From Kocuria soli (GTDB lineage Bacteria; Actinomycetota; Actinomycetes; Actinomycetales; Micrococcaceae): DNA of 64,000 nt. The DNA lies in contig NZ_RKMF01000002.1 of assembly GCF_003797835.1 (NCBI RefSeq), positions 62,001 to 126,000 of the forward strand, in the 5' to 3' direction. Made by a program: the position numbers and the translations under genes. The stretch's first letter is position 1. Every line of letters begins with the position of its first letter. Shown piece after piece: positions 20,789 to 54,517 of this stretch. The notes beneath the pieces were generated by a model that made no database searches, was not told the DNA's origin, and saw only the letters and a program-made list of their open reading frames with translations.

Positions 20789-20801
20789 GGGCGGCCCAGG
20801 G

Positions 20802-21206
20802 TCAGGTCAGTTCAGCGACGAGGGCGCGGACGCGGTTCTCGATGTCGTCGCGGATCGTGCGCACGGCGTCGAGTCCTTGCCCGGCAGGATCGTCGAGCTG
20901 CCAGTCCTCGTAGCGCTTGCCGGGGAAGATCGGGCAGGTATCCCCGCACCCCATCGTGATCACCACATCCGAGGTCTTCACCGCGTCGGGGGTGAGCAGC
21001 TTCGGGCGTTCGGCGGTGATGTTGATCCCGACCTCGCGCATAGCTTCGACTACGGCGGGGTTGAGCTGGTCGGCGGGTTCGGAGCCGGCGGAACGGACCT
21101 CGATGCGACCCGCCGCCATGCGATTGAGGTAGGCGGCGGCCATCTGCGATCGTCCGGCGTTGTGGACGCAGACGAACAAGACCATCGGGAGCTGCGGGGT
21201 GGTCAT
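20802..21206 (-). CDS. arsC: Arsenate reductase (thioredoxin-type, LMW-phosphatase fold)
   Basis: 134 residues. The P-loop CVHNAGRS (Cys-X5-Arg) near residue 13 is the nucleophile site of the low-molecular-weight phosphatase-like ArsC family, and GCGDTCPIFPGKRYEDW carries the resolving cysteines and the Asp loop. It reduces arsenate to arsenite, the substrate of Acr3 and ArsM next door. ATG 21206 overlaps the acr3 stop as ATGA. Last gene of the ars operon. Confidence 0.93.
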   Translation of the reverse strand: MTTPQLPMVLFVCVHNAGRSQMAAAYLNRMAAGRIEVRSAGSEPADQLNPAVVEAMREVGINITAERPKLLTPDAVKTSDVVITMGCGDTCPIFPGKRYEDWQLDDPAGQGLDAVRTIRDDIENRVRALVAELT

Positions 21207-22318
21207 GATGCCTCGGTTTCTGTCTGGTAGGGGTTGGTGTGGAACCAGCTTCTGGCGGTCCAGAGGGAGACGTAGACGAGGCCGACGAGGACGGGCACCT
21301 CGATCAGCGGGCCGACGACCCCGGCGAGGGCTTGGCCGCTGGTGGCGCCGAAGGTGCCGATGGCGACGGCGATGGCGAGCTCGAAGTTGTTGCCTGCCGC
21401 GGTGAACGCCAGCGTGGTCGAGCGGGCGTAGCCGAGGCCCAGTGCCTTGCCGAGCAGGAGGCCCGCGAACCACATGAGCGCGAAGTAGACCAGCAGCGGC
21501 AGAGCGATCCGGGCGACGTCGAGCGGGTTGGAGGTGATGGCGTCGCCTTGGAGGGCGAACAGCAGCACGATCGTGAACAGCAGCCCATACAGCGCCCACG
21601 GCCCGATCTTCGGGATGAAGCGCTCTTCGTACCAGGCCCGGCCGCGGCGTTTCTCGCCGATCCAGCGGGTCGCGAACCCCGCGACCAGGGGCACGCCGAG
21701 GAAGACGAGGACGTTGAGGGCGATCTGCCCGACCGAGACGTCCAGGCCTTGGGTGTCGAGGCCGAGCCAGCCGGGGAGGATGGTGAGGTAGAACCAGCCG
21801 AGCACCGAGAACATCACGACTTGGAATACGGAGTTGATCGCGACCAGCACGGCGGTGGCTTCCCGGTCGCCGCATGCGAGGTCGTTCCAGATCACGACCA
21901 TCGCGATGCAGCGGGCCAGGCCGACGATGATGAGGCCCGTGCGGTATTCGGGCAGGTCCGGTAGGAAGAGCCAGGCGAGGGCGAACATGACCGCCGGGCC
22001 GAGCAGCCAATTCAGCAGCAGAGACGAGACGAGGAGGCGCTTGTCTCCGGTGACGGCGGCGATCTTGTCGTAGCGGACTTTCGCCAGCACCGGGTACATC
22101 ATCACCAGCAGTCCCAGGCCGATCGGCACCGAGATCCCGCCGACCTCCATCCGAGCAAGCAGGTCCGAGAGGGCGGGCACGAACCGGCCCAGGAGGAGAC
22201 CCGCGATCATGGCCAGGCCGATCCAGGCCGGCAGCCACTTGTCCAACGTGGACAGGCGCTTCGCGGCCGGGGCCTGCGTCGGGGTCGCGATGCTGGTGAT
22301 GTTCTGGGGTGCGGGCAT
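21203..22318 (-). CDS. acr3: Arsenite efflux transporter Acr3
   Basis: 371 residues, about ten membrane helices, with family landmarks GLLVMMYPVLAKVRYDK, RCIAMVVIWNDLACGD (conserved Cys) and FTAAGNNFELAIAVAIGTFG. Exports arsenite across the inner membrane using the proton gradient. ATG 22318 is the likely start: GAGGAGA lies upstream, and earlier in-frame sequence only mirrors arsM. Between arsM and arsC in one minus-strand operon. Confidence 0.93.
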   Translation of the reverse strand: MPAPQNITSIATPTQAPAAKRLSTLDKWLPAWIGLAMIAGLLLGRFVPALSDLLARMEVGGISVPIGLGLLVMMYPVLAKVRYDKIAAVTGDKRLLVSSLLLNWLLGPAVMFALAWLFLPDLPEYRTGLIIVGLARCIAMVVIWNDLACGDREATAVLVAINSVFQVVMFSVLGWFYLTILPGWLGLDTQGLDVSVGQIALNVLVFLGVPLVAGFATRWIGEKRRGRAWYEERFIPKIGPWALYGLLFTIVLLFALQGDAITSNPLDVARIALPLLVYFALMWFAGLLLGKALGLGYARSTTLAFTAAGNNFELAIAVAIGTFGATSGQALAGVVGPLIEVPVLVGLVYVSLWTARSWFHTNPYQTETEAS

Positions 22319-22349
22319 CGTGCTGCTCAGTCTCCTCGTCAGCTCGGGA

Positions 22350-23168
22350 TCAGTTGGCAGGCTTGGTGGCGCGGACGATCGCGGCGTGCATCCCGTCGGC
22401 GGCCTCGTGGGTGAACTCCACGCTCGCATCCGCGAAACCACCCTTGGCGAGCCCGTCGAGGTACTCGGTCTTGGAGAGGGCTCCGGCGATGCAGCCGACG
22501 TAGGAGCCGCGCTCGGCCCGCTGCTCGGGGGTGAGGCGGTCTTCGGCGACGACATCGGAGACCCCGATCCGCCCACCGGGGGTGAGGACGCGGAACATCT
22601 CGGCGAGCACCGCCGGCTTGTCGGTGGACAGGTTGATGACGCAGTTGGAGATCACCACATCCACCGACCCATCGGGCAGCGGCACGTCCTCGATGGTGCC
22701 CTTGAGGAACTCGACGTTCTCCGCCCCGGCTTCGGTCTTGTTCTTCTCGGCCAACGCGAGCATCTCGTCGGTCATGTCCACGCCGTAGGCGAACCCGGTC
22801 GGGCCGACCCTGCGGGCCGACAAGAGGACGTCGATGCCGCCGCCGGAGCCGAGGTCGAGCACCCGCTCACCCTCATGCAGCTCAGCGACCGCGGTCGGGT
22901 TGCCGCAGCCGAGGCTCGCCTCGATCGCTTCGAGGGGCAGGCCGGCGGCGGTCGCCTCGTCATAGAGGCCCGCGCCGAAGCTGCGCTCGGTCGGAGCACA
23001 ACACGAACCCGAATCGGCCTCCTCCACGGCGGGCGTGCTGGTGCAGCACGAGCCCGCGGGGGTCTCCTCAGCCAGCAAGTCGGCGTTGCGGGTGCCGCGG
23101 GTCACGGCGGTCGCGGCCTGCGCGTAGCGGGCGCGGACCTGCTCGCGCAGCTCGGTGTTCTCACTCAT
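22350..23168 (-). CDS. arsM: Arsenite S-adenosylmethionine methyltransferase
   Basis: 272 residues, class I methyltransferase. The SAM site is [17 protein letters not shown], followed by [15 protein letters not shown] and [20 protein letters not shown]. Arsenite-binding cysteines are expected at [17 protein letters not shown] and the N-terminal GCGNPTAV, all visible. The N-terminal segment has extra CC pairs (GSCCTS, GSCCAP). It methylates As(III). ATG 23168 is divergent from arsR and is the first gene of arsM-acr3-arsC. Confidence 0.92.
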
Positions 23169-23208
23169 GGCGCGCTCCATTCGGTCGGGTGGACTCGTCA
23201 TCTACGTA

Positions 23209-23240
23209 TTGATGTTCGTCGATGCATCGACAGTTGTCAA
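23209..23240. promoter_or_regulatory. Probable ArsR operator between arsM and arsR
   Basis: The perfect 14-base palindrome GTCGATGCATCGAC (23218-23231) sits inside a longer imperfect dyad from TTGATG to TTGTCAA. It is centred in the 94-base divergent region, as expected for an ArsR-family operator controlling both directions. Confidence 0.6.
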
Positions 23241-23262
23241 TGCGTGGCGTAGGATCAGGGCC

Positions 23263-23646
23263 ATGACGACTTCGCTGCCACTGATCGCCGCCGATGCGGG
23301 TGGGTGCTGTGCTCCGGTCACGGGCGGGGTGCTCGCGGTCGAGGATGCCCAGCGGTTGGCGCGGATGTTCAAGGCGCTCGGTGACCCGACCCGGGTCCGG
23401 TTGTTGTCGATGATCGCGGCGCAGTCCGGCGGGGAGGCGTGCGTGTGCGACCTGACCGAACCGGTCGGGCTCTCCCAGCCCACGGTCTCGCATCACATGA
23501 AGCAGCTCGTCGACGCCGGCCTGGTCACCCGCGAGCAGCGCGGCAAGTGGGCCTATTACGCAATCGTGCCCGAGATCCTGTCCATGCTCAGCAGCGCCCT
23601 CGACCCGCAGGCCCTGACCGACGGTGGCCCTGCCTCGTCGTGCTGA
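23263..23646 (+). CDS. arsR: ArsR-type arsenic-responsive repressor
   Basis: 127 residues with a winged-helix fold (ALGDPTRVRLLSMIAAQ, recognition helix SQPTVSHHMKQLVDAG). The As(III)-binding pair is Cys60/Cys62 in ACVCDL, the classical alpha-3 site. Cys15/Cys16 near the N-terminus may add a ligand. ATG 23263 lies behind GGATCAGGG. Divergent from arsM across the palindromic operator; its stop is 8 bases from the convergent zinc-ribbon gene. Confidence 0.93.
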   Translation: MTTSLPLIAADAGGCCAPVTGGVLAVEDAQRLARMFKALGDPTRVRLLSMIAAQSGGEACVCDLTEPVGLSQPTVSHHMKQLVDAGLVTREQRGKWAYYAIVPEILSMLSSALDPQALTDGGPASSC

Positions 23647-23653
23647 GACGGGT

Positions 23654-25318
23654 TCAGCGCGGCAGGGTCGCGTAACGGTTCCAGGAGGCTCCGGCGAGAC
23701 CGGCCCAGCGGGTCGCGGTGCCGATGCTGACGCCGATCAGTGAGGCGAACACCGCCGGTGGTGTGGTCGAGGCCAGATGCAGCAGGGCGGTGTTCCGGCT
23801 TGCTCTGGAAGTCACCCCGAGCTGGTGCATCCGGCGTAGGAGCGAGGCGGGATGCAAGTGGGTGCCGGCGTTCTTGCCGGTGAACAGCCACCGGGAATCA
23901 GCCAGCCTGCTCGCCGCCCCGAATGGCTTGGCGACCGGCAAGGCGGTCACCAGCGCATCCAGCGGCGGGATGAGCAACACCGGCTCGGAGCCCAGACGCA
24001 GGTAGGTTTCACCATCGCGGACCTCGATGTCACTGGTGATCAGGGCGGTGATCTTCGCGACCGGCTGGGCGTAGAGCAGGATCAGACAGGCTGCGGCACG
24101 GTCTTCGATGCTGGCGCTACCGGGCTCGTGTAGCAGCCGGCGAACCAGGGCGAGCTGTTCTTCGGGGTCGACGTCGTGGGCCGGGTCTTTCGCCGGAACC
24201 GGCTCAGGGAGCCAGACGTGCCGGAGGTAGCCGCCTCGTTTGAGCCAGCGGACGAACCCGAGGCGGCGGCTCCGGTCGGTGGTAATCCAGGCGTCAAGGT
24301 GGTCTTGCGGACAGTCATCGAGGTCGTAGCCGCTGGAGCTGAGATGGTCGAGGAACGCGCGGGCAGTGTCGATGTCGCCCCGGCAGCGGGCGGCCGCGTT
24401 CGGCGCGATCCGGTCGTGCCGGTCGGTCTTGGCGCGGCCGACGACGTGCCAGCGGGCGTAGCGGGTGAGCACGCCGCGCATCTCGGGATCGCTCACCTCG
24501 GCGACGACGTCTGCGGCGTATCGGTGCAGTCGGGCGGCGTTCTCATCACGAGGCGGCAGGGTGCCCGCGGCGACGAGCATCGCGCGCAGATAGGTCACCG
24601 AGAACATCTGTGGCCGCGCATCGAGCGCGTCGTGACTGAGGTCGACCTGGCCGCGGGCGATCGAGGTCAGCAGACGCAAGGATGCCAGATCGTGCCAGTT
24701 GGTCAGCAGCGATCGGGGTCGTTCGAGCTCGGTGAGGGCGTCGCGGACGGGTTTCAGTTCTGGCCGGATCACCCCGTCCGGGCCGGTGAGAGCGGCGTCG
24801 ATCTGCTGGGCTGCTTGGCAAGCGAAACAGCGTGGTCGGCCGTGATTCGTCGTGCGTCGCCCGAGAGCCTGCTGCCCGCAGATAGAGCAGTCGATCACGG
24901 GCGCTTGGTAGCAGGTCGGGCAGACGTCCGGGCTGGTCGCGGTGGCTTTCAAGGCGACTCGTTTGAGCCTGCCGCAGACGCCGCAGACCCGGCACGGGTT
25001 CCGATAGCAGCGACCGCAGAGGTTCGCCGCGCCGGGTCGCTTCCCGCCAGCTCTGGTCGCCAGCGGGCCGATCATGCCGCACTCGTCGCAGGCATCCTCA
25101 GGGTGATGGTCGCGGGCATAGCAGGTCACGCAGACCGCGCCGCCGTCGTCGGTGCGGGCGTTGACCCTGCGCTGGCGTCCGCATCCGGTGCAGGTCTCGA
25201 TCGGTGACCGGTGAGCGCGGCAGGCGCGGCACTCACCCCGATCCAGCGTGTGGTTCCAGCGCAGAGACTTCAGCCGGCCGCAGCGAAAGCAGATGCCCTG
25301 GACGATCGTGTTCGCCAC
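23654..25318 (-). CDS. Zinc-ribbon array protein with degenerate tyrosine-recombinase domain (module 1, gene C)
   Basis: 554 residues. The first 175 residues hold about ten CxxC pairs (CFRC, CRAC, CTGC, CVTC, CDEC, CGRC, CPTC, CSIC, CFAC), consistent with tandem zinc ribbons. The rest is helical: LTRYARWHVVGR and a SAM-like segment, then a C-terminal part that lines up with the tyrosine-recombinase catalytic fold (ACLILLYAQPVAKITAL for box I, SRNTALLHL for box II, SIGTATRWAG for the end). It lacks the Arg, His-x-x-Arg and Tyr residues. GTG 25318 follows the HTH gene by 9 bases. Probably a DNA-binding partner of the recombinase; not recognised as a named family. A longer relative lies at 46858-49452. 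Confidence 0.65.
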   Translation of the reverse strand: MANTIVQGICFRCGRLKSLRWNHTLDRGECRACRAHRSPIETCTGCGRQRRVNARTDDGGAVCVTCYARDHHPEDACDECGMIGPLATRAGGKRPGAANLCGRCYRNPCRVCGVCGRLKRVALKATATSPDVCPTCYQAPVIDCSICGQQALGRRTTNHGRPRCFACQAAQQIDAALTGPDGVIRPELKPVRDALTELERPRSLLTNWHDLASLRLLTSIARGQVDLSHDALDARPQMFSVTYLRAMLVAAGTLPPRDENAARLHRYAADVVAEVSDPEMRGVLTRYARWHVVGRAKTDRHDRIAPNAAARCRGDIDTARAFLDHLSSSGYDLDDCPQDHLDAWITTDRSRRLGFVRWLKRGGYLRHVWLPEPVPAKDPAHDVDPEEQLALVRRLLHEPGSASIEDRAAACLILLYAQPVAKITALITSDIEVRDGETYLRLGSEPVLLIPPLDALVTALPVAKPFGAASRLADSRWLFTGKNAGTHLHPASLLRRMHQLGVTSRASRNTALLHLASTTPPAVFASLIGVSIGTATRWAGLAGASWNRYATLPR

Positions 25319-25327
25319 CGGCGCCGG

Positions 25328-25672
25328 TCATTCGTCCGCAGGGGTGATGACCGCTCGGGTCGGGCGGTTCTTGCTCCCGCCCGTCGGCGGTTTGACCGCA
25401 CCCGCGGTGCCGGTCTTGCGGCCCCGCCGCGACGCCGACTCGACGTAGGGCTCGATCAGGTCGGCCGGTGTGCAGCCGAATATGTCGCAGAGCGCGGCGA
25501 GGAACTGCATGTTCAGCCGCCCGGGTTGGCCGACCACGATCCGGTAGACCTGGGTGGAGGTCATCACCACGCCCCGGTCGGCCAGCAGCGGCACCAGATC
25601 GGTCGTGACCTGCATGCCGTGTTCGTTCATCACCTTGCGTAGGTGCCAGTGATAGGCGACGGTCTTCGTCAT
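25328..25672 (-). CDS. Small XRE-type HTH protein (module 1, gene B)
   Basis: 114 residues. An N-terminal Cro/CI-like HTH (WHLRKVMNEHGMQVTTDLVP, STQVYRIVVGQPGRLNMQFL, then AALCDIFGCTPADLI) leads to a basic disordered tail (SRRGRKTG). ATG 25672 overlaps the recombinase stop as ATGA. Closely parallel to the protein at 46509-46865 (same HTH layout with STSQVYRLAAEKPERMNMQ). May regulate the module or assist recombination. Confidence 0.8.
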   Translation of the reverse strand: MTKTVAYHWHLRKVMNEHGMQVTTDLVPLLADRGVVMTSTQVYRIVVGQPGRLNMQFLAALCDIFGCTPADLIEPYVESASRRGRKTGTAGAVKPPTGGSKNRPTRAVITPADE

Positions 25673-26793
25673 CGTGATCCTCCCTCGATCGCTGTCGGTG
25701 GGGTGAACGCGCCGTCGAGAGCGCGGCGCAGGGTGCGGTTGCGGTAGTCACCGGAGACCCCGGTGTAGAGGGCGGTGGTCGAGCCCCAGCGGTGCCCGAC
25801 CTGCTGCTGGACGAACAACGGGTCGTAGCCGTCCTCGATCAGATGCGTCACATACGAGTGCCGCAAGCAGTGCGGGTGCAGCAACGGGTCCAGGCCGAGA
25901 TCATCGCGCCACTCGGCGAACCGGTCGTCGATGTGCTTGAGCCGGATGCGCCCTTGTCGCTCGGTCGGCCACAGGATCGTCTTGTCGGCAAGGTCGAACC
26001 GAGGCCGAACCTCGCTCACGTACTCCTCGATCACCGGCCGGGTCCACCCGAACACGGCCAGCACCGCCCGGCGGCGCGGCTGCGAGCCGCGCATCGCTTT
26101 GCCCCAGCGGACGTTGCAGACCCCGAACCGGCCGAACTCCCAGCCCTGCGGGTTGCGGGTGAAGTCCGGCAGATCGAGCATCGCTGCCTCGCGCCGACGC
26201 AACCCGAACGCATAGATCATCTTGAACAGCGTGGCGTCGCGGAACAGCGTCAGCCATCCCTTGCGCTTGGAGGAGCGGGCCTGATCCACCAGGTCATCGG
26301 CGTAGTCGAAGAACATCTGCAGCTCATCCCGCGAGAGCGGTCGCACGTCCGGCCGTGCCTCGTGGTCGCTGGTATGGATGACCGTGTTCCACTCGTGGCA
26401 GACCTGCACCGGATGCGTGTCGAACAGATCGACGCAGCGATCGACCCAGCCGTAGCGGTGATCGACCAGGTAGTCGCAGAACAGCGCCACGGAGTTCTGA
26501 TAGGCCCGCACCGTCGACACAGACAGCGGCCGCGGTCCGGAGACGAGCGAGGTTGTCCATTCCTCCACGTCAGCCGGTGACCACTCCCACGGCGGGGCGT
26601 TGCAGAAGTCCGCGAACCGGCGTACCTGCGAGGCCCTGGTCTTGATGGTTTGCACCGCGAGCATCCGCGAGGTCTGCTGTGCCGACCAGCCCGCCACCAT
26701 CTCATCGAAGAACTGCTCCGCCGGCCGCAAAAGCGACACGTTGCCAGACGACAAGACCCCCGTGCCGGGTACCTGATCGTCTGAGAACACCAT
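25669..26793 (-). CDS. Tyrosine recombinase (module 1, gene A)
   Basis: 374 residues. A core-binding SAM-like domain (about 20-120) is followed by the catalytic domain with all key residues: Arg199 in YAFGLRRRE, His308 and Arg311 in HCLRHSY, His334 in VGHRW and Tyr343 in ALYTGV. It shares the segment HPVQVCHEWNT and much of its sequence with the recombinase at 45394. ATG 26793. The next 170 bases upstream hold several TTACAT palindromes that may be its binding sites or operators. Likely catalyses movement of the arsenic element. Confidence 0.9.
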   Translation of the reverse strand: MVFSDDQVPGTGVLSSGNVSLLRPAEQFFDEMVAGWSAQQTSRMLAVQTIKTRASQVRRFADFCNAPPWEWSPADVEEWTTSLVSGPRPLSVSTVRAYQNSVALFCDYLVDHRYGWVDRCVDLFDTHPVQVCHEWNTVIHTSDHEARPDVRPLSRDELQMFFDYADDLVDQARSSKRKGWLTLFRDATLFKMIYAFGLRRREAAMLDLPDFTRNPQGWEFGRFGVCNVRWGKAMRGSQPRRRAVLAVFGWTRPVIEEYVSEVRPRFDLADKTILWPTERQGRIRLKHIDDRFAEWRDDLGLDPLLHPHCLRHSYVTHLIEDGYDPLFVQQQVGHRWGSTTALYTGVSGDYRNRTLRRALDGAFTPPTAIEGGSR

Positions 26794-26801
26794 GCCACGA
26801 C

Positions 26802-26818
26802 CTTACATTAAATGTAAG
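26802..26818. repeat. Perfect palindrome CTTACATT-A-AATGTAAG
   Basis: 8-bp arms around one base, 9 bases upstream of the recombinase start. AT-rich against a GC-rich surrounding. Candidate recombinase core site or operator for the HTH protein. Confidence 0.65.
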
Positions 26819-26824
26819 AATCAT

Positions 26825-26958
26825 GCATCAGATGTAAGATGAGTAGCGAAACCCCTGGTCAGGCGGCGGTGACGCTGCTAGGTTGGAGACGGCTTTGGTT
26901 CCGCGGAACAGCGTGATTCCGGCTTACATCTAAGGTACGAATCTTACATTAGATGTAA
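26825..26958. repeat. Further copies of the CATCAGATG/TTACAT motif at the element end
   Basis: GCATCAGATG at 26825-26834 (running into TAAG), CTTACATCTAAG at 26923-26934 and TTACATTAGATGTAA at 26944-26958. With the palindrome at 26802 this makes four related sites between the recombinase start and the M23 gene stop. The same cores occur before the second recombinase (45241-45251 and 45347-45357). Confidence 0.6.
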
Positions 26959-26967
26959 CTTCGGACC

Positions 26968-28614
26968 TTACGCTTTCACGGTGATGTGGAGGTGGTCGTA
27001 GTGGCCGCCGGTGACATCGGTAGGGTCGTGCATCCCGCCGCCGGTGTAGTCGCGCCATCCCTCGTCGGCGCGGGCGAGGGACCAGATCTTGCCCTGCCAG
27101 ATCAGGTACTCCACCCCCAGCACCTCGGCGTGGTCTTTCAGCCAGTTCGTGACCTGCCACCCGTACTCGCGCTGCCCGGGGGTCGGATGCTGGCCGATCG
27201 CGTTCCCGAACGCCACATCACACGCGCGACCGATCGGATGCTCCGACTTCGAGCCGGGCCGGGGCGAGTAGCACGCCCACGTCGACTCCGGAAACCCCGT
27301 AGAGGTCTGTTCGTAGACGCTGAGCATCCGCACCGTGATCTGCCCATCCGACGTCGGATCGTCCACCAGCTCATCCGGGTCGCCCTCCACCGGCACCGGA
27401 TCACCCGGCGCCCCAGTTCCGGTGTCACAGTCTTCGGACCCGGCCGGCGGCACGTCGGCTTCGGGGAGGTCGGCGGCGTCATGGTCGTTGAGCCACTTCG
27501 CGGGGTCGATGTACTCGCCGTCGGTGCCACCCTGACGGACCTCGAAATGCAGATGCGGCCCCGTCGACATGCCGCTGGAGCCGACGTCGGCGATGTGCTG
27601 CCCGGCCCGCACCTGGTCGCCGGCCTGGACATGGATACCGTCCTCCCACGAATGCGCATACGCCGTCGCGACCGTCTGCCCGCCGAGCTGGTGTTCGATG
27701 ACGATGAGGCCGCCGTACCCACCGGAAAACTCCGACACCGTCACCGTGCCGTCGGCGGCGGCCAGGATCGGCGTCCCATCGGGCGCTGAAAAATCCGCGC
27801 CCGTGTGGAAGGACTCTTCCTCGCCGGTGATCGGGTGCGTGCGCGGTCCGAACGGGCTGGTGGCCACCCAGGTTCCCTCGGGCAGCGGGAACACCACCCG
27901 CGACGACTCTGTCACCGGCCCCGCGGCGAGCACCGGTATCGGGTCGGCTGTCACAGGGCCGCCCGCGCCAGTGCTGGTGAGGGTGGTGAGGATCTGTTCG
28001 GCGACGGGTTCGTAGTTGTCGTACCGCTCCGGATACGCGCTCACTTCCACGGCCTGGGCGGCTTCGCCCTTGCCCATCTGCTCCCACCCCGGAATATCCA
28101 GCAGCCCGCGCGGCGAGCCCTGATTCGGGCCGCCGGGACCGCCGTAGAACGCGGCGGCTTGGTAGTCGGGGTCCATGAGTTCGGCGACCGTGCCCCACCC
28201 CGCCTGCGGGCGCATCTGGAACAACCCCAGGCTGTCGTTGTCCGACCCGTTGCCGTCGTTGGGATAGTCACCGCTCTCGGGATAGACGCTCGTGTTGGCG
28301 AGCATCCGCATGCGCGACTCCGTGAGCGCGGCCATCAGCGCGACCAGGATGCCGTCGCGCCCCACCCCCTCGATGCCCGATCCGGTCTCGATGATCGTCG
28401 CCGCGTGGGTGAGCTCGGCACGGCCGAGCGTGATCGTCTCCCCATTCCACGTCGTCGCCGTCAACTCCTCCGGCACATTCCCGACCTGGAACCCGCCGGC
28501 GGGGGCGGCGCAGGAGACGGTGGCCGGGTTCATGAGCAGCCCGACCGACACCAGCCCGACCAAAGGGGCCAGCAGGACGAGGGCGGCGACTGCCGCGATG
28601 ACCTTCCGCATCAT
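26968..28614 (-). CDS. Conjugation cell-wall hydrolase: transglycosylase-like plus M23 peptidase
   Basis: 548 residues. An N-terminal signal anchor (VIAAVAALVLLAPLVGLVSVG) precedes a lysozyme-like region (MAALTESRMRML, then NDSLGLFQMRPQAGWG), as in VirB1-type enzymes. An M23 endopeptidase domain follows, with HTGADFSAPDGTPI and HLHFEVR carrying zinc ligands and the GxH. A C-terminal domain has IGRACDVAFGN and YDHLHITV. It is exported and opens the cell wall for the transfer channel. ATG 28614 (tandem ATG). Its stop is now 10 bases from the arsenic element; originally it would have faced the DUF6112 genes. Confidence 0.85.
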   Translation of the reverse strand: MMRKVIAAVAALVLLAPLVGLVSVGLLMNPATVSCAAPAGGFQVGNVPEELTATTWNGETITLGRAELTHAATIIETGSGIEGVGRDGILVALMAALTESRMRMLANTSVYPESGDYPNDGNGSDNDSLGLFQMRPQAGWGTVAELMDPDYQAAAFYGGPGGPNQGSPRGLLDIPGWEQMGKGEAAQAVEVSAYPERYDNYEPVAEQILTTLTSTGAGGPVTADPIPVLAAGPVTESSRVVFPLPEGTWVATSPFGPRTHPITGEEESFHTGADFSAPDGTPILAAADGTVTVSEFSGGYGGLIVIEHQLGGQTVATAYAHSWEDGIHVQAGDQVRAGQHIADVGSSGMSTGPHLHFEVRQGGTDGEYIDPAKWLNDHDAADLPEADVPPAGSEDCDTGTGAPGDPVPVEGDPDELVDDPTSDGQITVRMLSVYEQTSTGFPESTWACYSPRPGSKSEHPIGRACDVAFGNAIGQHPTPGQREYGWQVTNWLKDHAEVLGVEYLIWQGKIWSLARADEGWRDYTGGGMHDPTDVTGGHYDHLHITVKA

Positions 28615-45251: not shown

Positions 45252-45280
45252 GAGATCCGAACGGGCGTCTGCGTCAGAAA

Positions 45281-45303: not shown

Positions 45304-45346
45304 CCGCGATTTTCCGCGCGACGAGGTCTGACGGGCTGATAGATTC

Positions 45347-45357: not shown

Positions 45358-45393
45358 ACGATTAGCGCGTTATGTGGATGGATTGGGTGGTTG

Positions 45394-46865: not shown

Positions 46866-49452
46866 CCCGGTCTTCGCCGCGCTGACCACGCAGATCGCCG
46901 CCGTCGAGCAGGCTCTTCCGCGTGAGCGGATCGCCGAGATCGTGAACGGCTCGTTCCGGCAGCTGCCGGTTGCCCGCCGGACGCTCGACCTGGTCACGCA
47001 GGCACCCGGGCTGCTCACCGCGGCGGATCCGCAGACCACGCCGGCTCTGGCAAGTCTGTTGCTTCGCCTCCACGAGGCTGGAGCGCGGACTGTCCGACCG
47101 CCGCGTTGCGCACACTGCGGCGGGCTGCGGAAGCTGCTGCAGCGCACGCCGACCGGGCGGATCTGCGCTCCATGCGGTCGCCGTCTCGCTTCCAGGAGCG
47201 GACTCTGTGATCGTTGCGGGCACACCCGCCGCGTGCAGACAGGGCCCGGTGAGAGCGCGTACTGCAAACGATGCTGGGTCGACATGAAACCCGAAGCGGC
47301 CGAGCGCATCGTCGAGCAAGTCCGCCGCCATCGCCGTGTCGCGACCGCGACCATCCTTCGAGCGGTGGAGCAGATGGCGGCGGACGGGAGGGACCGCCGA
47401 GTGCGGCTGATGCTCGAGCTGCAGGCCCACGGCGCGGAGTGGTTCTCCGACCCGGCCGCGGGCTCTGTGCTGTTCGGCACGTTCTACGACCTTCTCCACG
47501 CGGACGGCGCGCGTCTGCCCGAACGACGCTGCGGAGGCTGCGGCACCACGCGCACGCTCACCGAACGCGTCGAGGGACGAGTGAGCTGCCGACGCTGCTA
47601 CCGGATCGCGCACCATGCCCCCTGCGATGGCTGCGACGACGTCACCAACCTGGAGCGGGTGCTCTCCGACGGGCGGCGACTCTGCCAACGCTGCACGAAC
47701 AAGCTCCCCGACGAGAACGCCGTCTGCGTGAGCTGCGGCAACCATCGACTGATCGCCTACCGCAGCCCGGAGGGCCCGCTGTGTTCAACGTGTCGGAGCT
47801 CCTCCCGGCTGGACACCTGCACGGACTGCGGGGAGCTTGCGCCCTGTTTGTTCCACGGCAGCGAGAAAGCGATCTGCAAACCCTGCTCCGACAAGGCCAG
47901 CGTCGACACCTGCACGATCTGCGGGAACGAGCGGCAATGCCGCTGGCCGGGAACCGCGCGCGCCGCCTGCGAGCAGTGCTCCAACCCTCGCCAGCCCTGC
48001 GTGAGCTGCGGGGAGGTCCGGCTGCGCCACAAGCGCACCGAAGACGGCTCCGGCTATCTCTGCTGGGCCTGCGTTCCGCCGATCATCGAGACCTGCACAA
48101 GCTGCGGAGACGCTCGGATAGTGAACGGCCGGATCGAGGGCCGGCCGTTCTGCCCGCTCTGCTATCCCCGCCAACCGGAGTCGTTCCGCCCCTGCACCAG
48201 CTGCGGGACCATCACACGGCTGATCGCGAAGCTCTGCCCCCGTTGCCGAGCCGATCAGATGATCCGGGAGATGGTGCCCGACGAGCTCGCCGCCTCCGAT
48301 GCACGCATCGCGCATCTGCGAGAGCGGTGGTTCCAGGGTGCTCCGTCGAAGATCGTCTACGCCTTCGAACGCGGCACCGTCGCCTGCACGCTGATCACCC
48401 GAGTGCTCACCGCCCCATCCCTGCGCACTCACGCCTACCTCGACCAGGCCGGCTCGGAGTATCAGACCCGAGCGGTTCGGTCCGTGCTCATCGACCACGG
48501 GCTGCTCCCACCGCGGGACGAGCTGCTCGCCCGGTTCGAGCTCTGGCTCGACAGCGCACTTGCCGAGATCCCCGACCCGGGTGAACAGCGCACCGTCACC
48601 CAATACGCGCGATGGCGACACCTGCGCGCACTGCGCCGCAACACGATGCCGTCCCGATCAGGCCAGCTGTCCTGGCGGCGGCTCGAGATCGCGGGGATCA
48701 TCGAACTGCTGGAATGGATCCATACCCGCGGAGGTTCTCTCGTGTCCCTCACCCAGGCGGATGTCGATGAATGGCTCACCGGCGGCCGACGCCCGTTCCT
48801 GCACCACTTCCTGACCTGGACCGCACGGGCCGGCGCATCCCGACCGCTCACCGCTCCACGCCCGCCATCAGGAGCCTTGAGCCCGCAAGCCATGAGCGAC
48901 GAGGAACGCTGGCGGCTGCTCGCCGATGTCACCTCCGACCCGTCCATCAACCCGCACACGAAGCTCGCCGCGGGGCTGATGCTCATGTTCGGCGTCCGGG
49001 CGGCGAAGATCGTCCAGTTGCGCGCGGAAGACGTCACCGTCACGGACCAGGCCGTGGTCGTCCGCCTCGGCCAGGAACCTCTCGTGCTCCCCGCCGAGCT
49101 CGCGCCGGCGGCCGCGGGAGCCGCCAGCAACCGCACCGCGCCTCGCATGTTCGTGGAGAGCATCGAACAGGAGTGGGTCTATCCCGGAACCCGGGCCGGG
49201 CATCACATGGCCCCCGACACGCTGAATACCCGGCTCCGCGCTGCCGGCATCCCGCCGCGACTTGCCCGCACCGGCGCGCTGATAGCGCTCGCGCAGGAAC
49301 TCCCACCCGTCGTTCTCAGCCGGCTGACTGGCCTGGACATCTCCTCCGCGATCGCCTGGTCCAACGCGATCGGCGCGAACAGCACCGCCTACGCCGCGCG
49401 GTCGTCGAGCGCGTCGGCATGCCCCTCCCAGTCGTCCTGCACTGAAATCTGA
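46858..49452 (+). CDS. Zinc-ribbon array protein with degenerate tyrosine-recombinase domain (module 2, gene C)
   Basis: 864 residues. An N-terminal helical lead is followed, from about residue 80 to 470, by some twenty CxxC pairs (CAHC, CAPC, CDRC, CKRC, CGGC, CRRC, CDGC, CVSC, CTDC, CTIC, CTSC and others), consistent with ten zinc ribbons in tandem. The C-terminal 350 residues resemble a tyrosine recombinase: LMLMFGVRAAKIVQLRAEDV keeps the box I Arg, but box II reads RLARTGALIALAQ and the Tyr region ISSAIAWSNAIG lacks the nucleophile. Roughly 300 residues longer than the copy at 23654, mainly by more ribbons. Probably a non-catalytic DNA-binding partner. Confidence 0.65.
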   Translation: MLDPVFAALTTQIAAVEQALPRERIAEIVNGSFRQLPVARRTLDLVTQAPGLLTAADPQTTPALASLLLRLHEAGARTVRPPRCAHCGGLRKLLQRTPTGRICAPCGRRLASRSGLCDRCGHTRRVQTGPGESAYCKRCWVDMKPEAAERIVEQVRRHRRVATATILRAVEQMAADGRDRRVRLMLELQAHGAEWFSDPAAGSVLFGTFYDLLHADGARLPERRCGGCGTTRTLTERVEGRVSCRRCYRIAHHAPCDGCDDVTNLERVLSDGRRLCQRCTNKLPDENAVCVSCGNHRLIAYRSPEGPLCSTCRSSSRLDTCTDCGELAPCLFHGSEKAICKPCSDKASVDTCTICGNERQCRWPGTARAACEQCSNPRQPCVSCGEVRLRHKRTEDGSGYLCWACVPPIIETCTSCGDARIVNGRIEGRPFCPLCYPRQPESFRPCTSCGTITRLIAKLCPRCRADQMIREMVPDELAASDARIAHLRERWFQGAPSKIVYAFERGTVACTLITRVLTAPSLRTHAYLDQAGSEYQTRAVRSVLIDHGLLPPRDELLARFELWLDSALAEIPDPGEQRTVTQYARWRHLRALRRNTMPSRSGQLSWRRLEIAGIIELLEWIHTRGGSLVSLTQADVDEWLTGGRRPFLHHFLTWTARAGASRPLTAPRPPSGALSPQAMSDEERWRLLADVTSDPSINPHTKLAAGLMLMFGVRAAKIVQLRAEDVTVTDQAVVVRLGQEPLVLPAELAPAAAGAASNRTAPRMFVESIEQEWVYPGTRAGHHMAPDTLNTRLRAAGIPPRLARTGALIALAQELPPVVLSRLTGLDISSAIAWSNAIGANSTAYAARSSSASACPSQSSCTEI

Positions 49453-49670
49453 CGATGACGTTTCCAGGGATGTCACGTCGTGAGAATCGGGCGGCACCGA
49501 TTCTGCTCGGCGGTCAACTCGTCCTGATCGTGGCCGCGCTCTCCTTCGACATAGGCCACGAACAACACCCACGCCGTGTCCGATGATCGGCGTCGGGTGG
49601 GAGGGCGTCTGGTGTCCGAGTTCGTCGTTCCGGTCAACCACGTCGTATGACCTTGACGTGCAGGAGCCGC

Positions 49671-50591
49671 TCAATGCCGCTCGGTCGGCACGCTCGGCCG
49701 GTCCCCGGGAGAGTGCGTCGACTGAGGGTCGCAGCAGTCCTCCTCGGTCCTCCGTCCGGAGTTCCGACGGCGTTGATGAAGGAATCCGCTTAGTAGCACG
49801 ATGAGCACCACGGTGGTAGACAGGCCGGCGATGACGCCGGTGTTGCTTTGGAGCCAGTTCGATATCGTCGCCGAGACAGCGGCGACGTCGGTGCGCCCTG
49901 CGGAAGGGGCATCGCCGACGACAACTGGAAACCAGTACCAAGCCAGGTAGACGCCGGTGAGGATCAGGACGGCGGCGGTGACCTTGGGAACGAATCGTGT
50001 CAGTGCGGCGATCCGCCTGGACAGCACAGAACCGGCTACGGCGGCGACCACGGCGACAAGCAGCAGGACGGTGGCGGAGCCGGCGGCATAGATGGCGAAG
50101 ACGAGGAGCAGCCCGACGAAACTGGCTGTCGCCTGGGCCTGGGCGATGACCGCGAGGAGTACGCCGAAGGTGCACGACAGCGAGGCCGCGGCGTAGCCGA
50201 CGCCGAAGACGACCATGCGCACGGCGCTGGGCAGCCGTTCGATTGCGCGGCCGGGTATGCCGGGAAGCCGGAGGGACATAGAGCGTCCGGCTAGCATCGC
50301 CCCGCCGAGCAGCACCAACAGGATCCCGACGGCGAGGCCGAGGGCTGGGGCGGCCTGGATCAGGCCCCGTGCGCCGGCGCTTACCGCGACGCCAGCCAAG
50401 GCGAGCGTGCCCGCAAACCCGATCGTCAGCGCGAGGCCAGCCCGTAGGGCGCGCAGCAGGCGCACCGGGGCTGAGGAAGAGGCGGCGTCGCCCAGCGCAT
50501 GGGTGATCCAGGCCGGGAGCAGCGCGAAGCCGCAGGGATTGACGGGGGCGATCATCCCGGCGGCGAAGGCAAGGGCGAGGAGTCCGCCCAT
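49671..50591 (-). CDS. CcdA/DsbD-like membrane protein in mer operon
   Basis: 306 residues, about seven membrane helices. The CcdA-type pair of conserved segments is visible: APVNPCGFALLPAW and AAASLSCTFGVLLAV, each with a Cys that would form the redox pair. The cytoplasmic tail has EEDCCDPQS. CcdA/DsbD proteins carry reducing power across the membrane. Last gene of the mer operon, 3 bases after the TlpA-like gene. Either a redox partner of that lipoprotein or a mercury transporter; the redox role is favoured by context. Confidence 0.8.
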   Translation of the reverse strand: MGGLLALAFAAGMIAPVNPCGFALLPAWITHALGDAASSSAPVRLLRALRAGLALTIGFAGTLALAGVAVSAGARGLIQAAPALGLAVGILLVLLGGAMLAGRSMSLRLPGIPGRAIERLPSAVRMVVFGVGYAAASLSCTFGVLLAVIAQAQATASFVGLLLVFAIYAAGSATVLLLVAVVAAVAGSVLSRRIAALTRFVPKVTAAVLILTGVYLAWYWFPVVVGDAPSAGRTDVAAVSATISNWLQSNTGVIAGLSTTVVLIVLLSGFLHQRRRNSGRRTEEDCCDPQSTHSPGDRPSVPTERH

Positions 50592-50594
50592 CGC

Positions 50595-51113
50595 TCAGGC
50601 CCCGGCCTTGTGGAGCGCGGAGACGATCGTATCGGCGTCGGGGTCGGTGGCGCGGAAGGTCACCTGTCCGTCACTGTCGACGATGATCAGTGTAGACAGC
50701 GCGGCGACCCCGAAGCGCTGGGACAGCGCCGCGCCCTCGTCGATGGCGGCGGGGACATGCACGGCGTCGACGTACTCCATGAACCTCTGAATGGTCTCGG
50801 TAGGTTCGCGCGGATCCATGTCGACGGCGAGGAACTGGGCATCGATGCCGGCCTCCTCGGCCGCGGCTGCCGCCTGACCGAGGGATCGGACTCCGCCGAC
50901 GCATTCGCCGCAGCCGACGGAGAAGAAGAACACCGCGGTGGGCTTCCCGGCGGCGGGCAGGCTGATCCGCTGAGCGTCGATGCTGGTCACCGTCGCGGCG
51001 GTGGCAGTCTCGGCAGAGACGGGATCCTTATCAACGGTGCCGCAGGCGGTCAGGATGAGCGAGCCTGCGAGCAGGAGGGTGGCGAGCGAACGACGGGCGC
51101 GGGAGCTGATCAT
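50595..51113 (-). CDS. TlpA-like thioredoxin-fold lipoprotein
   Basis: 172 residues. The lipoprotein signal ends LILTACG (lipobox, Cys24). The thioredoxin-like domain has the active site VGCGECVGG (CxxC) and the cis-Pro-like region VAALSTLIIVDSDG. Outside the membrane it could reduce thiols or bind Hg(II). ATG 51113 overlaps the MerT-like gene by 4 bases. Co-operonic with a CcdA-like protein, the usual partner of such thioredoxins. Confidence 0.82.
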   Translation of the reverse strand: MISSRARRSLATLLLAGSLILTACGTVDKDPVSAETATAATVTSIDAQRISLPAAGKPTAVFFFSVGCGECVGGVRSLGQAAAAAEEAGIDAQFLAVDMDPREPTETIQRFMEYVDAVHVPAAIDEGAALSQRFGVAALSTLIIVDSDGQVTFRATDPDADTIVSALHKAGA

Positions 51114-51409
51114 TGGTTCTGTTCGCCCTTCGGGTCGGTGCGGTGAGCGGATTCGGTGGGCGGGCAGCAGTCAGGTTCGACACGGCCGCGGCGGGTTCGG
51201 CGGCGGACGACGACGAGCAGCACGATCGCGAGGAGCGCAATGCCCACGCCGATCACCCACGGGTTGCCGAGAAGGAGCCCGCCGATGCCAGTAAGCATTC
51301 CGCCGGCGATGAGCACGGGCAGCGCGCAGCAGATCGTCATGAGGAGCACGGCACCGGCTCCCAGGAGTAGGCCACCGCCTCGCGTTCGGTCGTCGTGTTT
51401 GGAGGTCAT
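51110..51409 (-). CDS. Small cysteine-rich membrane protein, MerT/MerE-like
   Basis: 99 residues with two membrane helices. The first carries a vicinal pair (MTICCALPVLIAGG), as in MerT/MerF/MerE mercury importers, and the C-terminal tail has a second pair (PDCCPP). ATG 51409 chosen; the frame is open to 51442. Between merB and the TlpA-like gene. Mercury uptake to the cytoplasmic reductase is the likely role; exact family not certain. Confidence 0.7.
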   Translation of the reverse strand: MTSKHDDRTRGGGLLLGAGAVLLMTICCALPVLIAGGMLTGIGGLLLGNPWVIGVGIALLAIVLLVVVRRRTRRGRVEPDCCPPTESAHRTDPKGEQNQ

Positions 51410-51438
51410 AGCGTTCTCGAATCCTTCTGTGTCGCGGG

Positions 51439-52089
51439 TCAACAGCAGCGGGGACAGTCGTCGGCCACCGGGGTGTCGTCCTGAAGCAGGTCGAGCAGGC
51501 TCGTTGTGAGCTCGTTGCCGATCCGGTAGGCCTCGGCCACCGACACCACCTCGGCACCGGGATGCTCAGAGAGCCACCCGGTGGCGTCGTCGACGGAGGC
51601 GAAATAGTGCACCTGGTTGCAGAAGGCCGAGCGGATCGAGGTGATCTGCTCCAGGTTCACCAGCGACACCACGGCGCTCGGGGGTGTGACGCCGGTGACA
51701 CCGGCAACCGGATCGATGGTGACGCGGATCGTCTCTCCGCTGGCCGGGGAGACGGACTCCACGCGCGCTGGGCGATCGAGGAGGGCCGGGAAGATGAGGG
51801 TGTCCAGGGCGCACCAGGTGTAGAGCTCCTCACCGTCGACGGTGAACCGGTGCGGTGTAGGGCGCAGCGTGAGGCCCTGGCCGACGATTCGGCCCTGGTC
51901 GTCGTACTCGGTGTCCAGCATCGCGGCCAGTCCGAGCCGTACCTCGTCGATCGTGCGGCCCGCAGCCACGGACAGCTGTTGGACGGTGACGGGGTCACCG
52001 TCGGCGAGCAGCCGCAGCAGCGGGATGAGCAGGCCGGTCTCTCCCAGTCGGCTGAGCCGCTCGGGCAGTTGCATGCTGAGGTCAGACAT
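51439..52089 (-). CDS. merB: Organomercurial lyase
   Basis: 216 residues. The catalytic triad of MerB is present: Cys93 and Asp96 in YTWCALDTLIFP and Cys157 in SAFCNQVHYF. An N-terminal winged-helix segment (PLLRLLADGDPVTVQQLSVA) precedes. Cleaves carbon-mercury bonds and passes Hg(II) to MerA. The C-terminus adds DCPRCC. ATG 52089 lies behind GGAGGAACC. Confidence 0.93.
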   Translation of the reverse strand: MSDLSMQLPERLSRLGETGLLIPLLRLLADGDPVTVQQLSVAAGRTIDEVRLGLAAMLDTEYDDQGRIVGQGLTLRPTPHRFTVDGEELYTWCALDTLIFPALLDRPARVESVSPASGETIRVTIDPVAGVTGVTPPSAVVSLVNLEQITSIRSAFCNQVHYFASVDDATGWLSEHPGAEVVSVAEAYRIGNELTTSLLDLLQDDTPVADDCPRCC

Positions 52090-52109
52090 CGTGGGTTCCT
52101 CCAGTTCGT

Positions 52110-53534
52110 TCACGCGCAGCACGACAGGAGCGACGGGTCGGTGGTGAAGGCCTTGGCGGCGATCCGGATGCCCTCGGCCATGGTCAGGTAGGGGGCCCAG
52201 GCGTCGGCGACCTCGGCGACCGTCTTGCCGAGCACGTGGACCCCGGCGGCGGCGAGCTCGCCGGCGTCCTTGGCGACGGCGGTGATGCCGAGGATCTTCC
52301 CGGTGTCGGCGTCCACGACGATCTTGACGAAGCCGCGGGTGTCGCGGTTGACCAGTGCGCGGGGCACGTGGTGCAGGGGCAGGACGCGGCAGTCGCAGCG
52401 GATCCCGGCGGCGACGACGTCCTTCTCGGTCATCCCGACCGCGCCGATCGCCGGGCCGGTGAACGTCACCCTCGGCAGTCGGGCGTAGTCCACGGCCCGA
52501 TCGGCGTCGGCGAACGCGTTCTCGGCGACGAGGGTGCCGTGGTGGGCGGCGACGTAGACGAACTCGGGGTGGCCGGTCACGTCGCCCGCGGCCCAGATCC
52601 GCGGGTGGGAGGACTGCATCCGGTCGGAGACGACCACCTCGCCGAGGTCCCCGGTCTTGACCCCGACCCTGTCGAGGCCGAGCCCATCGGTGGCCGGTCG
52701 TCGTCCGAGGGCGACGAGCACCTGGTCGGCGCGGAACTCCTCCCGGCCGCCGGCGACGTCCGCGGTGACGACGGCCTGCCCGGTCGCGGCGTCGCGGGAC
52801 ACCCGCGTCGGCAGCGCGCGGCGGACCACCCGGATGCCCTCGTCGGCGAACACCTCCTGCAGCGTCCTGGACACCTCCGGCTCCTCCTTCGACGCGAGCC
52901 GGGACCGGACCAGCACGGTGACCTGGGAGCCGAGCCGGGCGAACAGCTGCGCCTGCTCCAGGGCGACGTAGCCGCCGCCGAGCACGAGCAGGGACTCAGG
53001 GAGTTCGGTCAGCTCCATCGCCGTGGTCGAGGTCAGGTACCCGGTCTGGTCCAGGCCGTCGATCGGCGGGGCCCACGGCCGAGAGCCGGTCGCGACCAGG
53101 TAGTGCCCGGCCTCGATCGTCTCGGTGCTCCCGTCGTCCCCGGCGACCTGGAGGACCGGTGCGTCGGGGGTGCCGGCGAACGCGGCATCGCCGCGGCGGA
53201 CGGCCCAACCGTAGGAGTCGGCGACGTCGGCGTACTTCTCGCCCCGCAGCGACTCGACCAGCGCCTGCTTCCCGGCGATCAGGGCGGGCATGTCCACTGG
53301 CCCCGCCGTCGTCGCGATCCCCGGGAACCGGTCGGCGGTGTCGGCCGCGGAGTGCCGTGCGTCGGCCGCGGCGATCAGGGCCTTCGACGGCACGCAGCCG
53401 GTGTTCACGCAGGTGCCACCGAGCGTCCCGCGCTCGATCATCACCACCGACTTGCCGAGCGTGGTCGCGCGGATCGCGGCGGCGAACGCACCACCGCCCG
53501 ATCCGATGATGGCGAGGTCGTACTTCGTGGGCAT
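52110..53534 (-). CDS. merA: Mercuric reductase
   Basis: 474-residue flavoprotein. FAD site IIGSGGGAFAAAIRA, active disulfide GTCVNTGCVPSK (Cys42/Cys47), NAD site VLGGGYVALEQAQLFARLGS and the C-terminal vicinal Cys472/Cys473 (LSCCA) that hand over Hg(II). No N-terminal NmerA domain. Reduces Hg(II) to volatile Hg(0). ATG 53534 follows GGGAGC; GTG 53549 is an alternative. First gene of the mer operon, divergent from merR. Confidence 0.95.
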   Translation of the reverse strand: MPTKYDLAIIGSGGGAFAAAIRATTLGKSVVMIERGTLGGTCVNTGCVPSKALIAAADARHSAADTADRFPGIATTAGPVDMPALIAGKQALVESLRGEKYADVADSYGWAVRRGDAAFAGTPDAPVLQVAGDDGSTETIEAGHYLVATGSRPWAPPIDGLDQTGYLTSTTAMELTELPESLLVLGGGYVALEQAQLFARLGSQVTVLVRSRLASKEEPEVSRTLQEVFADEGIRVVRRALPTRVSRDAATGQAVVTADVAGGREEFRADQVLVALGRRPATDGLGLDRVGVKTGDLGEVVVSDRMQSSHPRIWAAGDVTGHPEFVYVAAHHGTLVAENAFADADRAVDYARLPRVTFTGPAIGAVGMTEKDVVAAGIRCDCRVLPLHHVPRALVNRDTRGFVKIVVDADTGKILGITAVAKDAGELAAAGVHVLGKTVAEVADAWAPYLTMAEGIRIAAKAFTTDPSLLSCCA

Positions 53535-53573
53535 CGCAGCTCCCGTCACTTGGGTTTCTCTTCTTTCTCGGTC

Positions 53574-53605
53574 ATACTGGACCTTCCAGTGCAGGGGAAG
53601 GTCAA
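53574..53605 (-). promoter_or_regulatory. MerR-type operator-promoter of mer operon
   Basis: Dyad GACCTTCC-N8-GGAAGGTC (53580-53603) between a -35 TTGACC (53605-53600, gene sense) and a -10 CAGTAT (53579-53574), spacer 20 bases. The overlong spacer with a dyad inside is the hallmark of MerR-family activation by DNA untwisting. Confidence 0.8.
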
Positions 53606-53638
53606 GAAGGCTTCTGCCGAAAGAAAAGGGGGCCTGCG

Positions 53639-54028
53639 ATGCGCATCGGGGAACTCGCCGAGCGGGCGGGAACGACGGCGAAGACGCTGCGGTTCTACGA
53701 GGAGCAGGGCCTGCTGCCCCCGGCCGAGCGCACGCCGTCCGGATACCGCGACTACGCGCCCGAGACGGCCGCCCGGATCGACTTCGTCCACCGCGGCCAG
53801 GCCGCGGGCCTCACCCTCGCCCAGATCCGCCAGATCCTCGACATCCGCGACGGCGGCGCTGCTCCCTGCGAGCACGTGCGCGATCTCCTCGACGCGCGCC
53901 TCGCCGAGATCGAGCAGCAGATCGCCCAGCTCACAGCGCTCCGAGACACCATCGCCGAGCTCAGGCACGACGCCGCGCAGCCCGACCCCGACTCGTGCAG
54001 CGCGGACCAGGTCTGCCGGTACCTGTAG
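53639..54028 (+). CDS. merR: MerR family mercury-responsive regulator
   Basis: 129 residues. N-terminal HTH (MRIGELAERAGTTAKTLRFY, then EEQGLLPPAERTPSGYRDY), dimerisation helix and metal-site cysteines: Cys77 (APCEHVRDLL) and the C-terminal SCSADQVC pair. Divergent from merA over the dyad promoter. ATG 53639. The 100 bases to the right inverted repeat hold no gene. Confidence 0.88.
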   Translation: MRIGELAERAGTTAKTLRFYEEQGLLPPAERTPSGYRDYAPETAARIDFVHRGQAAGLTLAQIRQILDIRDGGAAPCEHVRDLLDARLAEIEQQIAQLTALRDTIAELRHDAAQPDPDSCSADQVCRYL

Positions 54029-54124
54029 CTCACGGAAAATCCTCTCGGCTCTCCCAAGCGACGAGAACGGAAAGTCGTGCAGAATCCCCCGTCCGCCAAA
54101 TAGCGCCAAATCAAATAACGCGCA

Positions 54125-54517
54125 CTACCAATACCGCGTCTCCTGCCGGGTCGCGAGGAGCGAGGTCGCTCCCTTCGTCCACAGCACGTACGGGGCACGA
54201 TCGCCCAGCGCGTCCACCGAGACCGGCCAATGCGCATCGCCAGGGATCAGCGGCGCATACGACCCGTCCAGCACCCCCGCCAGATCATCGCCGAGGCTGC
54301 CCCGTGAAGCGAACTGCTGCGCGGTGTGGTGCAGGATCGACGCTTCCTCAGCCCGGACGCCGGGCATCGATCCGCCCACGTCGAGGAGCCGGAGGGTCTC
54401 GACGGCGCCTTCGCGGAGCAGTAGGCGACCGACGGTCCGGTCGGCAGGCTCGATCATCATCGAGAGCACCACGCGGGCCGTCCGCTCATCAGAGGCATAG
54501 TCAGTCAGAGCAACCAT
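54125..54517 (-). pseudogene. dprA: DprA-like gene, 5' fragment (split by transposon 2)
   Basis: 130 residues matching the DprA N-terminal region before the Rossmann core: a helical SAM-like part (MIEPADRTVGRLLLREGAVE), then IPGDAHWPVSVDALGDRAPY and VLWTKGATSLLATRQE. The last codons TYW-stop region are read from the transposon end. ATG 54517 has GGAAGGA upstream. Joined to the 44609 fragment the coding would run ATRQE...VTITGSRA. Motif copy 10 precedes it, confirming backbone origin. Confidence 0.85.
54129..54138 (+). repeat. Right terminal inverted repeat of transposon 2
   Basis: CAATACCGCG, reverse complement of 45232-45241, at the point where the dprA N-terminal half stops. Confidence 0.7.

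Follow-up and report, generated by a model that had tools for sequence, protein, structure and literature searches.

Does one transposition system account for the arsenic and mercury resistance genes that lie near each other in Kocuria soli? The question is raised by a stretch of 64,000 nucleotides (assembly GCF_003797835.1, contig NZ_RKMF01000002.1, positions 62,001 to 126,000), called the window here, in whose coordinates all positions are given unless a locus number (L) precedes them. It holds two copies of a three-gene module, composed of a tyrosine recombinase (A), a small helix-turn-helix (HTH) protein (B), and a zinc-ribbon protein with a dead recombinase-like domain (C), one next to arsenic (ars) and the other next to mercury (mer) resistance genes. 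We found that the ars and mer blocks are complete transposons of one actinobacterial family. Transposon 1 (ars) occupies 20689..26970 on the minus strand (6,282 bp from the left core to the right end), and transposon 2 (mer) occupies 45227..54133 on the plus strand (8,907 bp). These ends replace the limits of 20790 and 54138 that a preliminary description of the window had drawn.

Ends, cores, and arms of the elements

The borders were read from pairs of nearly identical elements lying at different places; the Curtobacterium and Rhodococcus (L101, L102) elements stand outside this exact-end determination. Transposon 2 is 99.91-99.93% identical over 8,908 bp to elements of Microbacterium (L042, L044), Nesterenkonia (L043), and Enemella (the related locus L045), and 99.6-99.9% identical, in two pieces, to a second Nesterenkonia element (L047). 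Outside the mer element, no similarity to L045 was detected in L043, L044, or L047, and in L042 the only common sequence is diverged; the window copy probably stems from the same insertion as that of L045.

The left end consists of a 6-bp core that does not vary within a subfamily, and at the right end 6 bp of the target itself are found. All six mer copies read had the left core TTCCCC, with differing, target-derived bases at the right end; in transposon 2 the core lies at 45227..45232 and the target core CCGCGT, which is dprA sequence, at 54134..54139 (both plus strand). The left cores of diverged relatives were CTCTCG (L050) and TTCTCG (L076), those of the ars-type group TAAGGT, TAACCT, TAATCT, or TAATGT, that of the L014-L025 group AACTAG, and that of its relative L058 AATTCG. 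The ars-type right end reads ...GGACCCTGCCGGT; at the left end, the sequence TAA... doubles as the stop codon of the M23 gene into which these elements are inserted. In transposon 1 this is the core TAAGGT (26965..26970, minus strand), and the target core GGTGAG (20683..20688, minus strand) belongs to the surrounding integrative and conjugative element (ICE). An exception to the core rule is an Arthrobacter element (L073) with AACTAG at both ends.

A short arm directly adjoins the left core, and its inverted copy lies 12 nt ahead of the right core. In transposon 1 the left arm CCGAAGTT (26957..26964, minus strand) is followed by the palindrome ACATCTAATGTA, and the right arm (20701..20708, minus strand), a 6/8 inverted match, is followed by the end 12 nt further on. 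The corresponding parts of transposon 2 are the left arm GCGGTATT (45233..45240, plus strand), followed by the palindrome GCATCAGATGC, and the right arm AATAACGC (54114..54121, plus strand; 7/8 inverted match), again with the end 12 nt further. Over 12 elements the arms matched at the 12-nt offset in 6.5 of 8 positions on average, compared with 0.8-2.9 at the 19 alternative offsets; pairing arms across subfamilies gave 4.0. The left arm and its inverted right copy thus change in step between subfamilies, although the match is weak (4/8) in an element of Kutzneria. Some elements have a second inverted arm at offset 27 (mer, 7/8; Kutzneria and Arthrobacter, 6/8 each).

Palindromes of the CATCWGATG type are found at the left end and again directly ahead of A, as the pair TTACATCTGATG / TTACATTTAATG in transposon 1 (26799..26842, minus strand) and a second site in transposon 2 (45345..45363, plus strand). 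End-motif matches numbered 7, with 0.06 expected (palindromes counted on both strands). A scan for right ends by the arms alone returned mostly chance matches, recovering the known Arthrobacter end and missing the mer end, and blastn with the ars left end against plasmids gave no match.

Targets and empty sites

Several genes serve as targets: dprA (the window and L042, as well as Pseudonocardia L110 by annotation and flank), umuC (L043, L047, and L076 by reading frame, L041 by flank), the 3' end of umuD in Arthrobacter, and the ICE M23 gene at its 3' end. Insertion also occurs at the left ends of other elements, which gives the tandem arrangements of L011, L018, L024, and L033. At the ICE M23 site of L022 and L023 (13682-18043) there are two right ends per locus, which represent nested or tandem elements. 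In Kutzneria sp. 744 (L033:9702-19872) three tandem 3.24-kb cargo-free copies, the middle one lacking its last 7 nt, stand with a 465-bp partial copy.

Uninterrupted counterparts were found for the M23, umuC, umuD/umuC, and tnpA sites. The M23 gene, with whose uninterrupted junctions the site of transposon 1 was compared, is joined to the next gene in two of 394 genomes of the class, the junction reading CCAAGCC-GGCGGT-GCGTRATGG; at the occupied site of L012 the left junction is CCAAGCC-TAATCT-CGGAAG... and the right one ...GCCGGTA-GGCGGT-GCGTAATGG. A search of 30 genomes of the genus of L043 for the empty umuC site gave six long matches besides L043 itself, five of which (L153-L156 and L158) had directly abutting flanks, their projected ends being 0 bases apart, the sixth (L157) being occupied. 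On the Arthrobacter plasmid L099, umuD and umuC are joined where three other plasmids hold an element, and an intact Tn554-like tnpA gene (L147) matches the occupied ones. In the window, dprA is split into a 3' part (44609..45226) and a 5' part (54134..54865), both on the minus strand, with the reading frame kept across both flanks and a linker as long as that of the homologue L078. From these empty sites we conclude that insertion duplicates nothing and removes nothing, with a one-nucleotide uncertainty in some groups.

The A, B, and C proteins and their co-occurrence

The six genes of the two modules are homologous in pairs, as the preliminary description had recognized: the A proteins are 50% identical (346 aa, E 7e-125), the B proteins 39%, and the C proteins 27% (E 2e-39). 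Gene order is also common to both, and the genes overlap or nearly abut; the strands, described earlier as identical, are opposite. In transposon 1, A (25669..26793), B (25328..25672), and C (23654..25318) are on the minus strand, and in transposon 2, A (45391..46512), B (46509..46865), and C (46858..49452) are on the plus strand. Both A proteins match Phage_integrase in Pfam, and that of transposon 1 has 6/6 catalytic residues, which agrees with the view of A as an active tyrosine recombinase; both B proteins match HTH_26 and are of the Cro/C1 type.

C of transposon 2 matched DZR_2 and Phage_integrase, both below threshold, and C of transposon 1 had no Pfam match. The catalytic tyrosine and the HxxR histidine were missing from C in 30 of 30 aligned rows, and the number of zinc ribbons varied between members. 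The structure predicted for C has the fold of a tyrosine-recombinase catalytic domain, which supports its assignment as a protein of this fold without the catalytic tyrosine; a dead recombinase-like domain had likewise been proposed earlier. Profile comparison of whole C with A gave no match, and its C-terminal half aligned collinearly with A at E 0.28. A search of solved structures with C gave nothing significant, XerD appearing at E 0.073.

The three genes occur mostly together, not apart. Of the 64 loci that a search with A returned from genome contigs, 55 had A, B, and C in this order, a count made after the first B profile, which drew in shadow open reading frames (ORFs), had been replaced. 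The other nine comprise three loci that end shortly after A (L029, L030, and L065), one with B and C and an interrupted A (L027), four with parts missing or broken (L038, L061, L066, and L067), and one with no A by profile (L069). In the reverse search, 33 of the 248 genomes sampled within the order had C, a figure that includes the genome of the window and counts partial matches; B adjoined it in 25 and A lay within a short stretch in 21 of the 30 C loci retrieved, among them that of the window, and several of the remaining loci were C fragments or lay at contig or locus edges. C was matched by 230 plasmid records and, among the 40 plasmid matches listed, frequently bore the annotation "hypothetical protein" or "site-specific integrase". 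Over 27 elements, the correlations between the distances of A, B, and C are 0.84, 0.85, and 0.77; the three proteins co-vary across the family.

Two further loci may be mentioned here. At the far end of a large Arthrobacter element, a second A-B pair without an annotated neighboring C faces inwards (L100:16740-18238). An ars-type element with an A 86% identical (L010) is found in a metagenome-assembled genome labelled Trueperaceae, which reflects either wide transfer or a binning error.

Cargo

The cargo lies between C and the right arm, in line with its earlier placement after C. In transposon 1 it comprises an ArsR family regulator (23155..23646, plus strand), a methyltransferase that we take to be ArsM-like (22350..23201, minus strand), and a protein with a C-terminal LMWPc or arsenate-reductase-type domain (20802..22238, minus strand), whose NCBIfam scores are below the curated cut-offs. 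Transposon 2 carries, on the minus strand, a membrane protein without a Pfam match, presumably CcdA-like, with a redoxin and a small ORF without a match (49671..51442), the organomercurial lyase MerB (51439..52122), and the mercuric reductase MerA (52110..53549). A 129-aa ORF on the plus strand (53639..54028) is a probable MerR-family regulator, the equivalent stretch of L009 being a MerR-family gene.

Other members carry MerA (L009, L010, and L027), a CopA-type ATPase with MerA (L012), a Cd-type ATPase (L007), a CDF protein with a weak ACR3 match (L050), or an MFS-type protein below the curated cut-off (L056). By annotation, Curtobacterium members also have SMR pumps with TetR, Arthrobacter members TerC, and Mycolicibacterium members MFS proteins with MerR; the elements of Kutzneria (L033, tandem copies of 3,238 bp with genes A, B, and C only) and L021 are cargo-free. 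Cargo also moves between subfamilies, since 1,931 nt of the window mer cargo are 97.5% identical to the cargo of L009, which is of the ars type and has an A with 48% identity to that of transposon 2. One transposition system with exchangeable cargo, as proposed earlier, is borne out by exact ends, empty sites, the presence of one element at several sites, varied cargo between ends of one kind, and the co-variation of A, B, and C; its restriction to metal resistance is not, given the SMR pumps with TetR, the MFS-type transporters, and the elements with no cargo at all. At L075:14183-15307, PLSDB calls an ATP-binding protein beside TnsA-like and TniQ-like genes bleomycin resistance, probably a mislabel.

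A subfamily inserted in recombinase genes

Several members of the family lie inside Tn554-like tnpA genes. In 13 loci of one subfamily (L074, L075, L103, L107, L108, L110, L143, L145, L146, L148, L149, L150, and L151) the core starts 3 nt after a tyrosine codon, which is that of the recombinase GH...T...Y box in 12 (11 by a search expression and L150 by eye), L149 being ambiguous. The insertions follow the pattern TAYNNN, then the core AACCCT or similar, then CGGGAATTGCATC. The target in L110 is the A gene of another family member: in this Pseudonocardia locus (L110:6428-12008) a member lying in dprA is split by a second one directly behind the catalytic tyrosine of A.

The left end of the element keeps the host reading frame open for at least 16 codons in 13/13 loci. 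Pairwise differences at codon positions 1, 2, and 3 of the in-frame tail were 62, 124, and 129; with no clear excess at the third position, they lend no support to selection on the tail. Most of the 13 loci were picked by element similarity, and L146, being found with a tnpA query, is not independent of the target. Of 12 plasmid records with a match over the left end, 8 were read, the other four being second places or near-duplicates; five further plasmid loci had the pattern in two cases (L143 and L145) and lacked it in three (L141, L142, and L144). The pattern for such a left end was found in none of 396 genomes of the phylum, which says little because the pattern is strict and the sample broad.

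We therefore suggest, tentatively and as somewhat less than an even chance, that this subfamily preys on other mobile elements by recognizing the tyrosine-box DNA of unrelated recombinases, a member of its own family included, and replacing the C-terminus in frame, so that the host recombinase may stay active. If so, the transposon would ride on the element it invades, whose recombinase keeps its nucleophile. Parasitism of one element on another in this form, directed at the catalytic motif of other recombinases, would be unusual.

Proposed mechanism and the role of C

We consider it very probable that these elements are site-selective transposons in which A is the sole catalytic enzyme, a circle is formed, the core is kept on the left, and C and B are accessory. 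A most likely joins both ends into a double-stranded circle, at whose junction the right arm, 12 nt, the 6-bp core, and the left arm would follow each other; the junction predicted for the mer element is ...CGCACTACCAATA-TTCCCC-GCGGTATTGCATC. A would then recombine this junction with the target, presumably with a strand bias, such that the circle core lands on the left and the target's 6 bp stay on the right; nothing would therefore be duplicated or lost, and the element would keep its private core. C may occupy part of the asymmetric site, with its extra inverted right arm, and set the direction or the choice of target. The CATCWGATG-like palindromes of the left end and of the stretch ahead of A are probable binding sites of B, which would act as a repressor, a direction factor, or both.

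An alternative that we regard as unlikely is that A acts alone, with B just a repressor and C a cargo-like or regulatory zinc protein outside recombination. It is in keeping with the presence of all catalytic residues in A and with the structural matches of C, which include the phage regulators SroF (titled repressor) and MrpR (master regulator). However, C is retained even in cargo-free elements of 3.2-3.9 kb and co-varies with A, and in GInts all four genes are needed, including that for the recombinase-like GinC, according to the part of that report available (PMC5385486).

Relation to known elements

The family works like Tn554, SE, and GInt elements but lies outside their definitions. In the open-access literature, the sole direct predecessor found was Romaniuk et al. 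2018 (PMC6305408), and no paper was found that gives the ends, the core, or a recombinase-gene target. Three members were described there as "XER modules" of Antarctic Arthrobacter plasmids: those of pA2H2, pA40H2, and pA8H1 (L072, L073, and L100), between umuD and umuC, with a tyrosine recombinase, an XRE protein, a second recombinase-like protein, and a variable passenger region. In the sections of that paper available, the third protein is named recombinase XerC, and the ends, core, junction, wider family, and dead state are not given. The dead zinc-ribbon partner C of the preliminary description is supported, but the system is not entirely new, three of its members having been reported in 2018.

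The known systems were compared through the accessible portions of PMC10214605, PMC5385486, and PMC8138268. SEs share with the family a 6-bp spacer between imperfect inverted repeats, an operon at the left end, a dead protein of the tyrosine-recombinase fold (Tfp), and target specificity; as far as the available text goes, their operon is IntA-Tfp-IntB-Srap, they are reported only in Gammaproteobacteria, and the 6 bp they carry come to stand at the new right end (PMC10214605). The family, in contrast, has the operon A-B-C with one active recombinase, an XRE-type protein, and zinc ribbons, and its core is at the left: TTCCCC is kept there in 6/6 mer copies, Arthrobacter L073 being the exception to this layout. 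GInts resemble it in that a recombinase operon occupies one end and the far end is short, and in their variable cargo, the 6-nt staggered cuts proposed for them, and an attL that overlaps a gene end; their ginABCD operon, absent from the A-B-C elements, encodes three integrase-like proteins and a small HLH-like protein, a zinc-ribbon or XRE protein being unmentioned in the text available (PMC5385486). Tn554 likewise has a three-gene recombinase module, site selectivity, and resistance cargo, but its TnpA and TnpB both have the catalytic motif (PMC10214605, in part), whereas A alone is active here, and in place of the DUF6262-like TnpC both window copies have an HTH_26 protein. RIT elements also have three genes in a row, which encode three recombinases, unlike the HTH protein B and dead C of the family, whose catalytic residues are in A only. 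The earlier likening to Tn554 and RIT is apt for the three-gene layout, but neither definition applies.

That the family is a diverged Tn554, SE, or GInt element is very unlikely. The style is common to all (a 6-bp core, inverted arms, a recombinase operon at one end with the cargo next, and a dead fold protein such as Tfp or GinC), but just a single recombinase is active, nothing besides A, B, and C would fit into the 3,238-bp Kutzneria element, and the core remains at the left with no right-hand footprint. A donor footprint in the style of SE or Tn554 is absent from the mer copies.

Highly improbable, and refuted for the mer element, is that A-B-C is a fixed ICE backbone or integration-hotspot module with metal genes swapped alongside by homologous recombination: many of the loci L006-L027 do have the ars-type module in one position, following the M23 gene, and the window and L008 agree to 94% over an 8-kb patch whose flanks agree to 73-79%, but two genomes have the M23 junction uninterrupted, one site is occupied by subfamilies with different cores and ends, the mer element lies at different genes in other genomes, and two plasmids of one Curtobacterium strain share an A-B-C-SMR block at 98.9% over 4,874 bp. 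Going by the Pfam matches of the ORFs scanned within them, neither window element has conjugation genes of its own between its ends, as no relaxase or transfer gene was among these matches. The mobile region around both includes a TrwC relaxase ORF (41005-44592) and a C5-cytosine methylase-like ORF (39579-40727) that matched just 116 of 324 profile positions.

Significance

With exact ends, the cargo, targets, and movements of the family become readable in any genome. The family joins SEs and GInts as a system that pairs a tyrosine recombinase with a dead protein of the same fold, and since it has a single enzyme, the role of such dead partners should be easier to test in it.

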